The translations under genes and the position numbers were made by a program. Below are positions 5,648 to 37,374 of a stretch of DNA of 64,000 nt, piece after piece. Position 1 is the stretch's first letter. The number at the start of each line of letters is the position of its first letter. Source of the stretch: Streptomyces oryzae. Lineage in GTDB: Bacteria > Actinomycetota > Actinomycetes > Streptomycetales > Streptomycetaceae. Under the pieces are notes generated by a model. That model searched no databases and had not been told where the DNA came from. It saw only the letters and a program-made list of their open reading frames with translations. The stretch lies in contig NZ_JADKMA010000001.1 of the NCBI RefSeq assembly GCF_017676365.1, forward strand, positions 1 through 64,000. Reading direction: 5' to 3'.

Positions 5648-8041
<2,394 letters not shown>

Positions 8042-32603: not shown

Positions 32604-32906
32604 GCGTTGGCGCTCCCATGCGACCTTCGGTGGCAGGCTGCCTGCCCGGACCGCAGAGTGCCAGGTCCCGGTCGTAGGCGTCCATCTCATTGCGCCGGTA
32701 GCGGGCGGGGAACCACGGCCCCCAACGGCCGCCCCCGGCTCTCGCGGGGCTGTGGATAACCCGTAGTCGGTCGTGGCCTGCTCTGTTACGGTCCTGTGGC
32801 CGGCCGCGGGACTCCGGTGCGACTTCCGGAACGTGCCTATGAAGCAATGATTCGCAGCTCGTGCCCCCATTCCCCGGCCGGCATCCGCACGCATGGGGGA
32901 AAGCCG
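32604..32906. promoter_or_regulatory. Divergent control region with a DnaA-box-like site
   Basis: About 300 bp between the binding-fold gene and the vWA gene. It contains TGTGGATAA (32751-32759), the complement of a perfect TTATCCACA DnaA box, and a TACGGT -10-like hexamer (32787-32792) facing the vWA gene. Otherwise no gene is seen; the reading frame upstream of 32907 lacks family-like sequence. Confidence 0.4.
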
Positions 32907-34367
32907 ATGGATTCGTACGGGGATGTCGTCGCGGCGGAAGATGTGCTGCTCTTCGTCAACGCCGCGATCACCTCCACCGGCCAGCGTGAATTCCACACCG
33001 ACGCGGGCGAGCAGCGACTGTCCCTGGACTTTCTCCATGCGTACATGCTGGGGAACTACCGTGACCTGTACGCCGGAATCCTCGCGCTCGACATCAACGA
33101 CCACAACGCGGCGCTCGTCATCCGGCGTCTGCTGGAGACCACGGGCGAGGCCACTGCCGACCAGCGCCGCAGCGAGGGCCGGCTGATCGCGTGCCGGCTG
33201 GCGACACTTCCGCCGCAGCGCGTCTACCGCCTGTTCGGCGCGCTGGGCCGGGCCGGGGTCAACAACCGCCGCACCCGCGCGATCATGCGTGACTGGCTGT
33301 CCGCCCGCCCGGACCTGGCATTCGATGCCGTGAAATACCGCAGCGGCCTCAAGCGAGCTCTCCGGCACGCACACCTGGCCCCCGGGCGCGCACATCTGAC
33401 CCCCGCAGGTGAAGAGTTGGGGGCATTTCTGTTCGCACCGCTGTCCCGCCCGCGCTATACGACACCCCTCTTCGAGACGTGGCGCCGCGCGCATTACGAA
33501 AAGGCCGCCCTGTACGAGCTGCCCTATACCGCTGCCGAGGGTTTCGCCGCCAAGCACGGCATCGCCCGGGATGTGTTCCTGGAGCGCATCGCCCCGCGGA
33601 TGACCCGCCTGGAGACCCTGCGCGTGCAGGAGGCCGCGCGCAGGCGCGGGACCACAGCTGTGCCGGCGGACCTGACCAGGATGCCGCTGACCCGGTTGGC
33701 GACCTACGTTCTGTCGCTGCCGGTCGAGGACCGGCTGCGCCGGCGCACCGAGCTCACCCACGCCCTGGAATCCGCCGCCGACCGGGTTGCCGGAGCCCAC
33801 CGGGGGAGCTGGGGCAAGGTCACCGCCGTACTGGACGACAGCTTCTCAGCGTCCGGTTCGGGCCAAAAGCGCCGCCGACCGCTTGCCGTGGCTCTGGCCT
33901 GCCACTATCTGCTCGCGGCCCTGGCGAGCGACTACACCGCGCTGTGGACATCCGGACGGACCGACGCGCTGCTGGGCCACCCGTACGGGCCGACGCCGCT
34001 GGGCCGCCGGGTGCTCGACGCGCTCGGCACCAGCCCGTCCAGGCTGTTGATCGTCTCCGACGGATGGGACAACGCACCACCCGGCCTGGCCGCCGAAGTA
34101 CTGCGCGTCTGGCGGGTCAGGCTCGACCCCCGGCGCGGCACCAGCATCGTGCACCTCAACCCCGTCTACGACGCGGCCGACTTCGACGTGCGCCGGCTCT
34201 CCCCGTCCGTGCCCACAGCGGGCATCCGTGACGCCGAAGACCTTCCCGCACTGGTGGAAGTCGCCCAGTTCGCGGAAGGCCGGACGGGCCTGGCCGAACT
34301 GACCGCCTACATGTATGCCCGCGCCGCCCGGATGCTGAGCGAACACCACCGGGAGCAGCCGAGATGA
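32907..34367 (+). CDS. Ro60/TROVE-like helical-repeat protein with C-terminal vWA domain
   Basis: A 486-residue soluble protein. Residues 1-290 are predominantly helical with HEAT-like periodicity (FLHAYMLGNYRDLYAGILAL, HNAALVIRRLLE, RVYRLFGALGRAGVNNRRTRAI). Residues 310-450 form a vWA domain: MIDAS DxSxS in VLDDSFSASGS near 314 and the later metal-site Asp in LLIVSDGWDN near 387. This order matches Ro60/TROVE proteins that bind Y-like or misfolded RNAs, though similarity is remote and a dedicated TROVE match is not verified. GGGGGAAA precedes ATG 32907. Its stop overlaps the next start by 4 bp (ATGA), so the two proteins are made together. Confidence 0.7.
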   Translation: MDSYGDVVAAEDVLLFVNAAITSTGQREFHTDAGEQRLSLDFLHAYMLGNYRDLYAGILALDINDHNAALVIRRLLETTGEATADQRRSEGRLIACRLATLPPQRVYRLFGALGRAGVNNRRTRAIMRDWLSARPDLAFDAVKYRSGLKRALRHAHLAPGRAHLTPAGEELGAFLFAPLSRPRYTTPLFETWRRAHYEKAALYELPYTAAEGFAAKHGIARDVFLERIAPRMTRLETLRVQEAARRRGTTAVPADLTRMPLTRLATYVLSLPVEDRLRRRTELTHALESAADRVAGAHRGSWGKVTAVLDDSFSASGSGQKRRRPLAVALACHYLLAALASDYTALWTSGRTDALLGHPYGPTPLGRRVLDALGTSPSRLLIVSDGWDNAPPGLAAEVLRVWRVRLDPRRGTSIVHLNPVYDAADFDVRRLSPSVPTAGIRDAEDLPALVEVAQFAEGRTGLAELTAYMYARAARMLSEHHREQPR

Positions 34368-35521
34368 CGACCCTGGACCTGACCGGCCTGGCCACCCGCC
34401 CCTCCCAGGTCTGGGGCGCGGTCCGTCTGGTACCGCTCGTGCGCGCCGACCCTGTCGACGATCTCCGTCTGCGCTCGCAGCTCTACGGCGATGCGACAGG
34501 TCTGGTCGAGGCCGGCCCCCGCCATGCCTACATCTCCTACATCCCGCACGGATTCGTCGCCACATGGACGGGCGACGGCACACCCGCAGCCGCCTACGGC
34601 ACTCACATGTCGGCAAACGGCACCTCCGCTCCCGCCACGATGGGCCTGCGCTTCCACCGAGGAATGGCCCGCCGCCAGGCCAAGGACCGGCTGCGCTTCC
34701 TCCCGCTGCACCTGGCACTGGAGGGCTACCTGGCACTGCACTTCGGCGGCCCCTCGACCGCCTGGGAGGAGTGGTCGCAGCGCGCGATCCGCCAAGGGCT
34801 CTCCCCACGTGTCGAGGAGGCGTATGTGGGCGCGGAAGTACGCGGACTCGCCGAAGCCCTGCGTATCTTCGAGATCCACCCCGGCCAGTGCGGGGTGCTG
34901 GTTTACGTCGCTGATGCACTCGCGGCCGCGTTCGTGGTCCCGCACCCCGACGATTACCGCGCGCTCCATCCGACTCTTCTGCAGGACCTGTACGGCGAAC
35001 TCATCCACCACTACGCCACCCTGATGCCGCCGGTGCCGGACTTCCGGGCCCGCATCCCCGACGAGCGGGTCCGCTCCCTGGCCGATCTGCGTGGGGCAGT
35101 CGCCGAGCAGGAGCACGCCTGGACGCACTTTCACGACTCGGCCATGGCCGCCGGTCTGCTGGACCACGAGTACGCCTGGCAGACGGTCCATCGCCTGGGC
35201 CGCTTCACCCTCTCCCGCTTTCTGCCGCCGTTCCGGCCCAAGGAGGAGAACCACATCGGCGAGGCCATCACCGACGACAGGGGCAGGATCGCCTACCTCA
35301 AGACGTTCCGGCTGTCGGAGAACCAGGTCCGCCGCGGCCATCTCCTCAGCCGCCTGGCCGCCAACGACTGGCATCTGGCGCACACCGCAGCCGATCTCGG
35401 CGTCGACGAGGCACAACTGGGCCTGCGGCTGGAATCCGCCGGCTTCGCCTCTCTGCTCCGCCAGGACGTCCTGGACGGCTACCGCAAGCAGGCGCGAAAC
35501 CGCGGAGTCAGCCGGGGATGA
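34364..35521 (+). CDS. ARPP-like domain protein with C-terminal helix-turn-helix
   Basis: A 385-residue soluble protein. Residues 8-260 look like the ARPP domain family (LATRPSQVWGAVRLVPLVR; LEGYLALHFGGPSTAWEEWSQRA; GLAEALRIFEIHPGQCGVLVYVADALAAAFVVPHPDDYRALH, located near 125-210), a domain predicted in the literature as enzymatic but not characterised as far as I know. Residues 330-375 form a Fis-like HTH (ANDWHLAHTAADLGVDEAQLGLRLESAGF). Translation is coupled to the vWA protein. The name ARPP is recalled, not searched. The last 14 bp overlap the convergent Imm49 gene. Confidence 0.65.
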   Translation: MTTLDLTGLATRPSQVWGAVRLVPLVRADPVDDLRLRSQLYGDATGLVEAGPRHAYISYIPHGFVATWTGDGTPAAAYGTHMSANGTSAPATMGLRFHRGMARRQAKDRLRFLPLHLALEGYLALHFGGPSTAWEEWSQRAIRQGLSPRVEEAYVGAEVRGLAEALRIFEIHPGQCGVLVYVADALAAAFVVPHPDDYRALHPTLLQDLYGELIHHYATLMPPVPDFRARIPDERVRSLADLRGAVAEQEHAWTHFHDSAMAAGLLDHEYAWQTVHRLGRFTLSRFLPPFRPKEENHIGEAITDDRGRIAYLKTFRLSENQVRRGHLLSRLAANDWHLAHTAADLGVDEAQLGLRLESAGFASLLRQDVLDGYRKQARNRGVSRG

Positions 35522-37208
35522 CCTCGATCCGTTCGCGGTTGAGCAGATACGTGGGCAGACAGGGCTGCTTGAGCTCGACGGGGAAACCGTAGTCGTACGC
35601 CAGGCTCGCCATCGCCAGCGGACCGAGCGCCACCTGGGCGCGCGGTGCCGCCGAGTCGCCCCAGTACGCGCCGTGGTGTGCGAGGGCTTCGCCGAGGGCT
35701 TCGGCGAAGGCGTCGTGGTCGCGGGTGATCAAGCGGTGGAAGAGGGCGACCGGCTGGTAGTCGATCCGGTTCACGAAGTCCTTGGGTGTGCTGGTCGCGG
35801 TGTCGGGTGCGGACGTCTCCATCGTGGTGATCAGCTTCTGTGCGACGTCGTCCATGGGGCGCTGGGCCCAGTACGTCTGCAGGGTGTCGATCCAGTGCAG
35901 GACGTACTCGTCCACGGACTCGTCCTGCCGCAGCACCTCCAACGGCACCTGGCACAGCCGGTCGAGCCGTTCCCGCTGACGGCAGACGACGCAGACGTAG
36001 AAGGCGTCGAGCCAGGCACGGGCATCCGCCGGCGGGTCCGCCGGGGTGGCGGGTATCTGCCATGCGTGGTCCTCGCCCAGCCTGCACTCCTGCGGGTCCG
36101 CACCGGTGAACAGCGCCGCACCGAGCTGAACGGCGACGGCCCACGGGTCCCAGGTGTCGATCCGGGCCGCGTCGGGGTCCGTGGCGCAGCGGGCGTGGGC
36201 GAGGGCCAGAGCCGAGCGGAAGGCGTCGCGGAGCCCGGCCGGGTCCCCCATGAGGCAGGTGAGGGATTCTCCCGCGGTGCGCGAGAGTTCGGCGGCGTCC
36301 GGGGGCTCAGCCGCTGCGCGGGTGGCCAGCCGGCCGGCACTGTCGAGGCCGACCAGGCTCTTCATGGCGCCGAGCAGCTTTGGCGGCGGCTGGACGGAGA
36401 ACGTGCGGGCGTCGTCGTCGATGACGGTGAGGGAGGTCAGACTGCCCTGGTGCCACCAGTAGAGCCGCGGCGACAGCGAGCCGGGCCCGTCCTCGTACGC
36501 GCCGAAGGCGTACGCCGCAAGGCCGTTGACGGCGTCGACCACGGTGCCGTCGGCTATCGGGTGGTACGCCAGCAGATGCCGGGTCGGCACGACGACCAGG
36601 GCGCCGGCATCCGGCAGCTGCTCCCCGGTCAGCTGCCGGGCCAGTTCGGACAGGAACAGCGCCTTGCTCGCGACGAACGGGGAATCGCCGTACACCGAGT
36701 GCAGCAGCGCCCCGCCGTCCAGGGGCACCTCAGCATGCTCGACGGGCAGCTGCGTCAGGTTCGCGTACGCCGCCCGGCCGAGCTCCTGCAGTCCGGCGCG
36801 CGCGACATCCTGGTCGGTGAGCACCCGTACGCTGGTGGCGCCGTCCAGTGCGTAGCCGAAGACGAGCCCGTCGGCCACCACCCGCGCGTAGCTCATGGCG
36901 CCCGCGAGGTCGGGCGTGAGGGCCTCGGCGGGCAGCAGCCTCGGGTACGCGGCCCGCAGCAGTTCACCGGCGTCCTCGCCGCCCGCGCTCGCGTCCGCGA
37001 GGTTGGCGAAGTGTGCCGCGACCAGCTCGGGCCAGCGCTCCTGCGGGGTGTGCCTGCACTGCTGCGCCAGGCTGCGCAGGGAGTACTCGTGGTCCTGCTG
37101 CATGTGTGGCGCGGCCAGAGTCCGCAGCTGAGCGGCTTGGGCGACGGTCAGCATCGGGAGTTCGGCGTCGGGGGTGGCCATGCCGTCGGTGGCGTCGTGT
37201 CCGTTCAC
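35508..37208 (-). CDS. Imm49-family immunity-type protein
   Basis: A 566-residue soluble helical protein. The C-terminal half carries the Imm49 hallmarks: DAFYVCVVCRQRERLDRLCQVP near residue 410 and LGPLAMASLAYDYGFPVE with LPTYLLN near the end. Imm49 proteins are predicted immunity factors of polymorphic toxin systems and are widespread as orphans in Streptomyces. GTG 37208 has AGGG 8 nt upstream; ATG 37181 is an alternative. The N-terminal 250 residues are extra relative to a minimal Imm49. No toxin gene is adjacent, so this is an orphan copy. Confidence 0.75.
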   Translation of the reverse strand: MNGHDATDGMATPDAELPMLTVAQAAQLRTLAAPHMQQDHEYSLRSLAQQCRHTPQERWPELVAAHFANLADASAGGEDAGELLRAAYPRLLPAEALTPDLAGAMSYARVVADGLVFGYALDGATSVRVLTDQDVARAGLQELGRAAYANLTQLPVEHAEVPLDGGALLHSVYGDSPFVASKALFLSELARQLTGEQLPDAGALVVVPTRHLLAYHPIADGTVVDAVNGLAAYAFGAYEDGPGSLSPRLYWWHQGSLTSLTVIDDDARTFSVQPPPKLLGAMKSLVGLDSAGRLATRAAAEPPDAAELSRTAGESLTCLMGDPAGLRDAFRSALALAHARCATDPDAARIDTWDPWAVAVQLGAALFTGADPQECRLGEDHAWQIPATPADPPADARAWLDAFYVCVVCRQRERLDRLCQVPLEVLRQDESVDEYVLHWIDTLQTYWAQRPMDDVAQKLITTMETSAPDTATSTPKDFVNRIDYQPVALFHRLITRDHDAFAEALGEALAHHGAYWGDSAAPRAQVALGPLAMASLAYDYGFPVELKQPCLPTYLLNRERIEVIPG

Positions 37209-37374
37209 CCCCGTGACCCTACGAGACCTGTCTCCGGTTGCCTGCGGCCGGTGCCATGTCCAACGCTTTTGTGAGGATGCTTTTTGCCATGGCGTTGCCG
37301 GGTTGTCAGCAGGCGTTGCCGGGTTCTCAGTGGTCGACGCGGTCGGATTTGGCGAGCCACGCGTCGAACGGTGC

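Follow-up and report, generated by a model that had tools for sequence, protein, structure and literature searches.

What kind of system is encoded by the two overlapping genes at positions 32,907 to 35,521 of a 64,000-nucleotide (nt) stretch of Streptomyces oryzae DNA (assembly GCF_017676365.1, contig NZ_JADKMA010000001.1, positions 1 to 64,000 of the forward strand; hereafter the window)? An earlier interpretation made from the letters alone (the sequence-only reading) had proposed that a Ro60-like protein with a vWA domain is coupled here to an ARPP-like protein with a helix-turn-helix (HTH), as a candidate RNA-related or defence-type system. The present analysis adds a third component, a structured RNA just upstream, and makes it moderately probable that the locus specifies a Ro-like ribonucleoprotein (RNP) composed of a Y-RNA-like RNA, a TROVE/Ro60-like ring protein, and ARPP-2. 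Computation shows that these three parts exist and occur together, that the ring protein has a predicted Ro60/TROVE-like fold, and that the structure of the RNA covaries.

A Conserved Gene Pair

Re-reading of the window confirmed the coordinates previously given for both open reading frames (ORFs), as well as their 4-bp overlap (ATGA, 34364-34367).

32907..34367, + strand: gene 1, TROVE/Ro60-like protein of 486 amino acids (aa); helical-repeat part at about residues 1-300, vWA domain at about 301-460 (AlphaFold2, Foldseek, VIA-align)
34364..35521, + strand: gene 2, ARPP-2 protein of 385 aa; PF22549 at E 6.6e-134; Q175 and G177 invariant

Relatives of gene 1 were gathered from a genome contig collection, and the best 80 of 236 were kept. 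The kept loci cover eleven named genera, including Streptomyces, Kitasatospora, Saccharopolyspora, Actinomadura, Streptosporangium, and Nocardia, and the closest named relatives of the window's gene are from Streptomyces. ARPP-2 lies directly downstream of gene 1 in 80/80 kept loci, so the adjacency is more than chance; in two of them, L043 and L071, it is split over two frames. With the starts as chosen, the overlap is -4 bp in 69 of the 80, and an in-frame NTGA start is possible in eight more. This neighbourhood survey had been proposed together with the sequence-only reading, and the pair that it might have found rarely adjacent proved constant.

When 296 genomes of the phylum were searched with profiles, gene 1 was found in two, both of the window's genus and one of them the window's own, and PF22549 rose above its cut-off in the same two. 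Beyond the phylum, the searches consisted of one scan of the genome contig collection and of plasmid, phage, and viral collections. Several genomes of the window's genus carry the unit in broken or fragmentary form (L025-L030, L181); together with an RNA-only relic described below (G117), these copies suggest repeated loss of the unit.

A Ring Protein With a Predicted Ro60/TROVE-Like Fold

Conservation was assessed in alignments A1 and A2, which hold 57 and 56 chosen rows, a subset of the loci. The intact DxSxS site claimed for the vWA domain was borne out by the 57 rows aligned for gene 1, in which D385 is also invariant and T363 is conserved in at least 90%.

33834..33848, + strand: metal-ion-dependent adhesion site (MIDAS) motif D310-x-S312-x-S314 of the vWA domain, invariant in 57 aligned rows

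The AlphaFold2 model of gene 1 (57 sequences, no templates; predicted local distance difference test score, pLDDT, 83.4) is all-helical over its first ~300 residues and continues into a vWA-type alpha/beta domain, the domain order that had been read from the sequence. Foldseek searches with this model returned Ro60/TROVE structures at all of ranks 1-10 (E 1e-5 to 3.4e-4; template-modelling score to the query 0.43-0.57; root-mean-square deviation 7-11 A), and the next, unrelated chain followed at E 0.018. VIA-align matched the model to 9kop, an entry titled 'Crystal structure of the Trove domain', with Z 16.5 over 410 residues (5.0 A, 12% identity, model range 8-477), and to the Ro60 of Thermus phage phiLo with Z 16.2.

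A competing assignment would make gene 1 a CoxE/MoxR-type vWA co-chaperone without relation to Ro60. The vWA domain does match such proteins by itself, the top vWA-only VIA-align matches being the Rea1/MDN1 MIDAS domain (Z 12.6 over 178 residues) and NorD (Z 11.0 over 166). However, the TROVE matches span at least 400 residues and include the helical half, and the adjoining RNA carries a Y-like stem, which leaves the co-chaperone assignment very improbable. The Ro60-like interpretation of the sequence-only reading, which had named a CoxE-type match as the alternative, is upheld by the fold comparison over residues 8-477.

Sequence comparison is less favourable to a TROVE assignment. The window protein has no Pfam, NCBIfam, or PADLOC match at E<=1, the TROVE model PF05731 is absent from the 11 Pfam families matched by the 57 aligned rows at E<=10, and an HMMER profile of gene 1 found no TROVE among PDB sequences. 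With narrow alignments, hhalign compared gene 1 (A1) to canonical TROVE proteins (A3) at 5%; the widened gene 1 family reached 95% (E 2e-8; no decoy) against 14 diverse TROVE proteins over residues 280-386, which comprise the helix preceding the vWA domain and the first half of that domain. A forced global hhalign comparison gave 96.7% over 413 columns with the helical half at low confidence (no decoy). The helical half therefore has no confident sequence-level link to TROVE in hhalign, and since it also lacks a Pfam TROVE match, its assignment relies on the predicted model. The best match for gene 1 is a predicted Ro60/TROVE-like fold over nearly its full length (residues 8-477). Because the sequence comparison is weaker than the fold match, the protein is termed TROVE-like here and is not filed as a TROVE member.

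A Covarying RNA Upstream of the Ring Gene

Alignment of the upstream DNA of 18 close loci revealed a block of ~115 nt that is nearly invariant, whereas its surroundings are not. The same boundaries emerge from the mean pairwise identity of 96 loci in 15-nt bins, which is ~0.30-0.32 from 120 to 46 nt upstream of the element, 0.35-0.44 in the 45 nt adjoining it, 0.59-0.92 inside it, and 0.33 after it. The first bin of the element, the TGTTACGGT region, is 0.60 identical, compared with 0.30-0.44 in the bins before.

32784..32792, + strand: TGTTACGGT block, -10-like, a putative promoter element; conserved just ahead of the RNA in an alignment of 14 close loci
32799..32882, + strand: Y-RNA-like structured RNA, 84 nt; nhmmer and covariation, no Rfam match

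The consensus of the 96 loci shows the TGTTACGGT block as well and, ~30 nt ahead of the RNA, a loosely conserved GGAAA-like block (window 32750-32792), which the window itself fits poorly.

The consensus RNA folds into a closed hairpin, 83-86 nt long (median 84; 96 loci), with an 8-bp closing stem, a bulged C, three GGG/CCC base pairs, an internal loop, and three further helices. The 96 rows of alignment A5 were obtained after removing five identical sequences; some of the loci are near-identical, and L106 had its coordinates corrected manually. The bulged C is found in 96/96 rows of A5 and 25/25 rows of alignment A6, and GGG/CCC is unchanged in 96/96 rows. Across the 96 sequences, 99.0% of cells are paired, compared with 39-50% for slid structures. 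In eight pairs, 42 cells are changed on both sides, against 10.3 in shuffles, and 0/500 shuffles reach 42. Kinship among rows inflates such double-change counts, and RNAs from Nostoc serve as an independent test.

Three Nostoc plasmids, two of them typed as conjugative, carry both genes at ~49% and 42% identity. A covariance model finds the RNA in 3/3 of them at 50-54 bits, and in two plasmids it ends 19 and 29 nt ahead of the annotated gene. The closing stem of the Nostoc RNA, ACUGUUUG/CGAACAGU, shares little with GCCGGCCG/CGGCCGGC, but its 8 bp, the bulged C, and GGG/CCC are kept. With Nostoc added, 33 double-change cells are counted, against 5.6 in shuffles, in an alignment that was fitted to the structure and so favours it. 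In two of the three plasmids, XisH/XisI genes are located between the TROVE-like and ARPP-2 genes (L120:9451-10190, L121:9472-10211).

Folding of single sequences gave a mixed outcome. The 131-nt window stretch folds no better than shuffles (z 0.72); the 89-nt RNA alone does fold better than shuffles (z -3.07), as do two Nostoc RNAs (z -3.46 and -5.02). The case for structure rests on covariation. The element was also rejected as an N-terminal coding extension of gene 1 that would begin at a GTG at 32796: the RNA-to-ATG distances fall in all three frames (35/25/36), and only 42/96 loci have an open frame through the RNA. In Rfam 15, the window RNA is without a match at E<=10, and the Nostoc RNA touches only SNORD23 (E 5.3).

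The stem bound by Ro60 has been described as a seven-base-pair helix with a single bulged cytidine and a three-nucleotide bulge opposite (PMC4726728), and the bulged cytosine is reported to be retained in bacterial Y RNAs (PMC4030889). By its anatomy and context, the upstream RNA looks like a Y RNA, so that the search for a Y-RNA-like transcript nearby, suggested along with the sequence-only reading, yielded a conserved, covarying, and presumably transcribed RNA. Several features nevertheless speak against this likeness or against the structure itself. Pair types are not clearly more numerous than in shuffles (49/500 with 96 rows, 298/500 with Nostoc). The internal loop near the bulged C, three pairs beyond it, measures 5 by 5 columns and is not clearly the three-nucleotide bulge of vertebrate Y RNA. 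ARAGORN finds no tRNA in L031, L047, L057, L085, or L119-L121, unlike in YrlA. At L025, where gene 1 is in pieces, a U replaces the C at the bulge position, and the Nostoc RNA has a partly disrupted helix 3 and lacks one pair of helix 2.

Association of the RNA With the Ring Gene

Applied to 103 stretches, an nhmmer profile built from 13 close loci detected the RNA no more than 700 nt ahead of gene 1 in 101; in the remaining two, L066 and L077, it is found further upstream. These stretches come from 104 loci with full-length gene 1 and count the window twice (as win and as L001). L015 and L054, with less than 700 nt of upstream sequence, fall outside the 103, and the genome of L015 (G028) has the RNA. 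Both L183 and L184, which played no part in building the RNA model, possess it as well; the remnants L027 and L030 are without it, and L028 shows a weak match. Every intact ARPP-2-type locus compared has the RNA ahead of gene 1.

The RNA ends a median of 29 nt before the ATG, on the same strand, and gene 1 follows it directly in nearly all loci. This arrangement counts against a separate RNA to the extent that a cis-acting operon leader, a regulatory 5' untranslated region bound by the TROVE-like protein, ARPP-2, or a small molecule, would look the same. Such a leader is nonetheless unlikely. A thermolysin-type gene on the opposite strand (L077) and a polyprenyl-synthetase gene (L066) stand between an intact RNA and the ring gene, an arrangement that favours a separate RNA over a leader alone. 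Moreover, the RNA persists in the relic locus of G117, where a fragment of ARPP-2 lies beside it and the TROVE-like gene is gone, and the two ends of the RNA form a single stem that has a Y-like bulged C. A Y-RNA-like molecule that is bound by the ring protein is likely, and its action in trans is only slightly less so.

RNA and protein also co-occur across genomes. Among 199 genomes of the window's genus, 28 have both, one has only the RNA (G117), three have only the protein, and 167 have neither (Fisher p 1e-29, ignoring relatedness), with one RNA match per genome. Two of the 28 are relics (G025, G165). Of the protein-only genomes, G057 and G115 look like remnants with short matches, and G043 has a weak, probably spurious match. 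Overall, the gene 1 matches in this sample are fragmentary in G025, G043, G057, G115, and G165 and in two pieces in G120 and G155.

Canonical TROVE proteins occur in 81 of 150 genomes of the window's genus and are present in the window's own, which indicates that two Ro-type systems can coexist in one genome. The new RNA was found at none of 41 canonical TROVE loci below E 0.1 (30 from the window's genus and 11 others, with flanks of ~1.5 kb). In genome G000, the canonical TROVE match lies at contig C64:2873-3058 (L111).

The ARPP-2 Partner

Gene 2 belongs to the Pfam family ARPP-2 (PF22549) with 445.7 bits against a cut-off of 27, in agreement with the ARPP-like domain noted before, and it also matches ARPP-1 below threshold. 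The Fis-like HTH that had been read at its end is consistent with the searches but faint: the C-terminus matches an NtrC-family DNA-binding domain at a profile E of 0.41, and its fold match covers 40 residues at 1.2 A with Z 3.4, a value that can mean little.

35318..35446, + strand: C-terminal Fis-like HTH of ARPP-2, about residues 319-361; weak profile and fold match

The published proposal that ARPP proteins are enzymes is based on a conserved Cys and Gln and on sugar-linked contexts (PMC9503650). Its two residues are probably the aligned Cys and Q175. The prediction of enzymatic activity fares unevenly here. Q175 and G177 are kept in 8/8 of the ARPP rows shown, from Streptomyces to phage, whereas none of the three ARPP-2 rows among them has the Cys that five ARPP-1-type proteins share, which cautions against presuming a cysteine mechanism for ARPP-2. 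Like the missing Cys, the fact that the predicted model of ARPP-2 matched no known fold in structure searches counts against the role proposed for it. Because that model is also of low confidence (pLDDT 68.7), no enzyme class is claimed. Processing of RNA or of a nucleotide by ARPP-2 is conceivable by analogy and is put forward tentatively.

It has to be weighed against the possibility that ARPP-2 is mainly a Fis-like DNA-binding regulator or a structural partner, in which case the unit would be an ordinary RNA-quality-control RNP with its own regulator. The lack of the ARPP-1 cysteine would suit such a role, as would the HTH-like tail, which is present in the actinobacterial and Nostoc ARPP-2 rows and absent from ARPP-1-type partners. 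On the other hand, the ARPP core with Q175 and G177 is common to ARPP-2 and to the phage, Alkaliphilus, and Nonomuraea partners described below, and those partners lack the HTH tail. A regulator or structural partner is accordingly considered improbable, if less so than the co-chaperone assignment of gene 1.

Distant Pairs With ARPP-1-Type Partners

Related protein pairs exist in which the partner is of the ARPP-1 type. A 462-kb uncultured huge phage encodes a TROVE-like protein (tblastn from the Nostoc protein, 21% identity over 94%, E 2e-15) together with an ARPP-1-type partner (PF20208, E 6.3e-25). The TROVE-like protein of an Alkaliphilus plasmid is 28% identical to the phage protein (E 1e-31), and a DUF6569 gene, 36% identical to the phage partner, adjoins it. 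Nonomuraea gerenzanensis has an ARPP-1-type pair with an ATGA overlap, and its relative L182 also has the pair.

The RNA model returned nothing significant at the phage, Alkaliphilus, or Nonomuraea-type loci, a result that limits the proposed RNP, since the RNA is thereby demonstrated only for the ARPP-2 type. In the phage, the gap upstream of the TROVE-like gene contains short open frames by eye and no RNA-model match. Upstream of the Alkaliphilus gene, the best RNA-model match has E 0.57; 231 nt of this region fold with z -6.05 including a terminator-like hairpin, and 150 nt without the hairpin give z -2.16. The 101 nt upstream of the Nonomuraea gene fold with z -0.05, and this DNA does not align with that of L182. 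In the viral contig collection, there were no relatives of alignment A1, of the Nostoc ARPP-2, or of the Alkaliphilus protein and no exact RNA core, and the phage proteins matched only their own contig. PF20208 was found in none of the 199 genomes of the window's genus, in a search that had no positive control.

Some further observations were made at these loci. Before the Alkaliphilus TROVE-like gene, ~830 nt are without an annotated gene (L153:6143-6970), with the terminator-like hairpin near 6720-6748 and an 8-bp stem UAUGCGAU/AUCGCAUA; this gap possibly holds an unrelated RNA partner. At L151:693-761, the huge phage has a tRNA with anticodon CTA, which ARAGORN calls tRNA-Pyl and which may be an amber suppressor; ARAGORN finds three other tRNA genes in the 13.4 kb. 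Canonical TROVE proteins have relatives in 84 phage records, crAss001 and Bacillus phage G among them, and a tRNA gene lies within the 1.5-kb flanks at 5/6 of the canonical-TROVE phage loci compared.

Neighbouring Genes and a Possible Role in Conflict

The convergent Imm49 gene reported next to the pair is real (window 35508-37325, E 7.8e-48) but is not conserved with it. By tblastn, it was found only at the window's locus and had no match at the other loci compared (flanks of 1.5 to 6 kb); it is therefore not part of the conserved unit. Clustering of the flanks with a crude gene caller showed no further family in more than 12 of the 80 kept loci. This caller recovered gene 1 in 75/80 and ARPP-2 in 43/80, so neighbour counts are lower bounds.

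Could the unit serve in anti-phage defence or plasmid conflict? In that case, the ring and the RNA would sense RNA damage during infection, and ARPP-2 would be an effector or a signal-processing enzyme. The patchy distribution in the genus, with its two relics, would be expected of such a system, as would the presence on conjugative Nostoc plasmids and on a huge phage, and ARPP domains have been described in ARG-centred conflict systems (PMC9503650). Nevertheless, PADLOC matched neither gene of the pair nor the Imm49 gene, no flanking family recurs beyond the level given above, and ~70% protein identity across families, together with a slowly changing RNA, would seem unlike an arms race. The earlier label of a defence-type system thus found no direct support, and a defence function is judged unlikely. 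A role in stress or conflict would be in keeping with the mobility of the unit and its patchy presence.

Comparison With Known Ro Systems

The Ro-like RNP proposed here can be set beside two bacterial systems. In Deinococcus, the Y RNA tethers Rsr to PNPase (PMC4726728). The resulting RYPER complex of Deinococcus radiodurans (Rsr, Y RNA, and PNPase) resembles the window unit in having a Ro60-type ring, a small RNA whose ends pair and which bears a bulged C, and an RNA-handling partner (PMC4726728; PMC7790460). It differs in that gene 1 lies outside Pfam TROVE, the new RNA is not in Rfam, and the partner, ARPP-2, is encoded in the gene pair. In the Salmonella rsr-yrlBA-rtcBA RNA repair operon, a Ro-like protein and a Y-like RNA are likewise encoded with RNA-related genes (PMC7790460), whereas the window unit has ARPP-2 in place of RtcB and RtcA, and no tRNA-like domain was found in its RNA. 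On a Rhizobium plasmid (L168), a canonical Ro gene is flanked by rtcR and an RtcB-family gene.

With the canonical TROVE proteins of the window's genus, gene 1 shares a vWA domain with a MIDAS. Unlike them, it is linked by profile only through this domain and the preceding helix, and the new RNA was not found at their loci. The ARPP domain family connects the unit to ARG-centred conflict systems, whose neighbourhoods can include a vWA protein (PMC9503650). However, outside ARG contexts, that source lists ARPP with HIRAN, WYL, and deacetylase/glycosidase proteins, its main text has 0 occurrences of TROVE, and the window's ARPP-2 is without the ARPP-1 cysteine.

Proposed Mechanism and Significance

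In the proposed mechanism, the small RNA, the ring protein, and ARPP-2 would be made together, and the TROVE-like ring would bind the RNA at its bulged-C stem. If bacterial Ro systems are a guide, the ring may capture damaged or misfolded RNA, with the small RNA controlling access to the ring or tethering its partner. ARPP-2 would take the place occupied by PNPase in Deinococcus or by RtcB/RtcA in Salmonella and might act on the captured RNA, on its ends, or on a derived nucleotide. More speculatively, and with somewhat less than even confidence, the unit may represent a second class of bacterial Ro RNP, in which a divergent TROVE-like ring has an undescribed RNA family as its Y RNA and a dedicated ARPP enzyme as its partner. 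It would then be an RNA-gated machine that modifies, repairs, or clears damaged RNA and travels among filamentous bacteria and plasmids; the huge phage carries a related pair of proteins.

No description of a unit of ARPP-2 and TROVE was found in the open-licence literature searched, and one may be in print outside that scope. In the literature compared, the functions of the ARPP domain family are predictions only, and as of a 2020 paper the functions of bacterial Ro and Y RNA had been studied only in Deinococcus (PMC7790460). The constant ARPP partner described above offers a route to the chemistry of this domain, and the covarying bulged-C stem makes RNA recognition directly testable. The minimal unit of one RNA, one ring, and one partner is present in Streptomyces-type bacteria and in Nostoc, which are growable and genetically tractable. 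Its occurrence in compact form across filamentous bacteria and cyanobacterial plasmids points to an undescribed RNA-handling machine.

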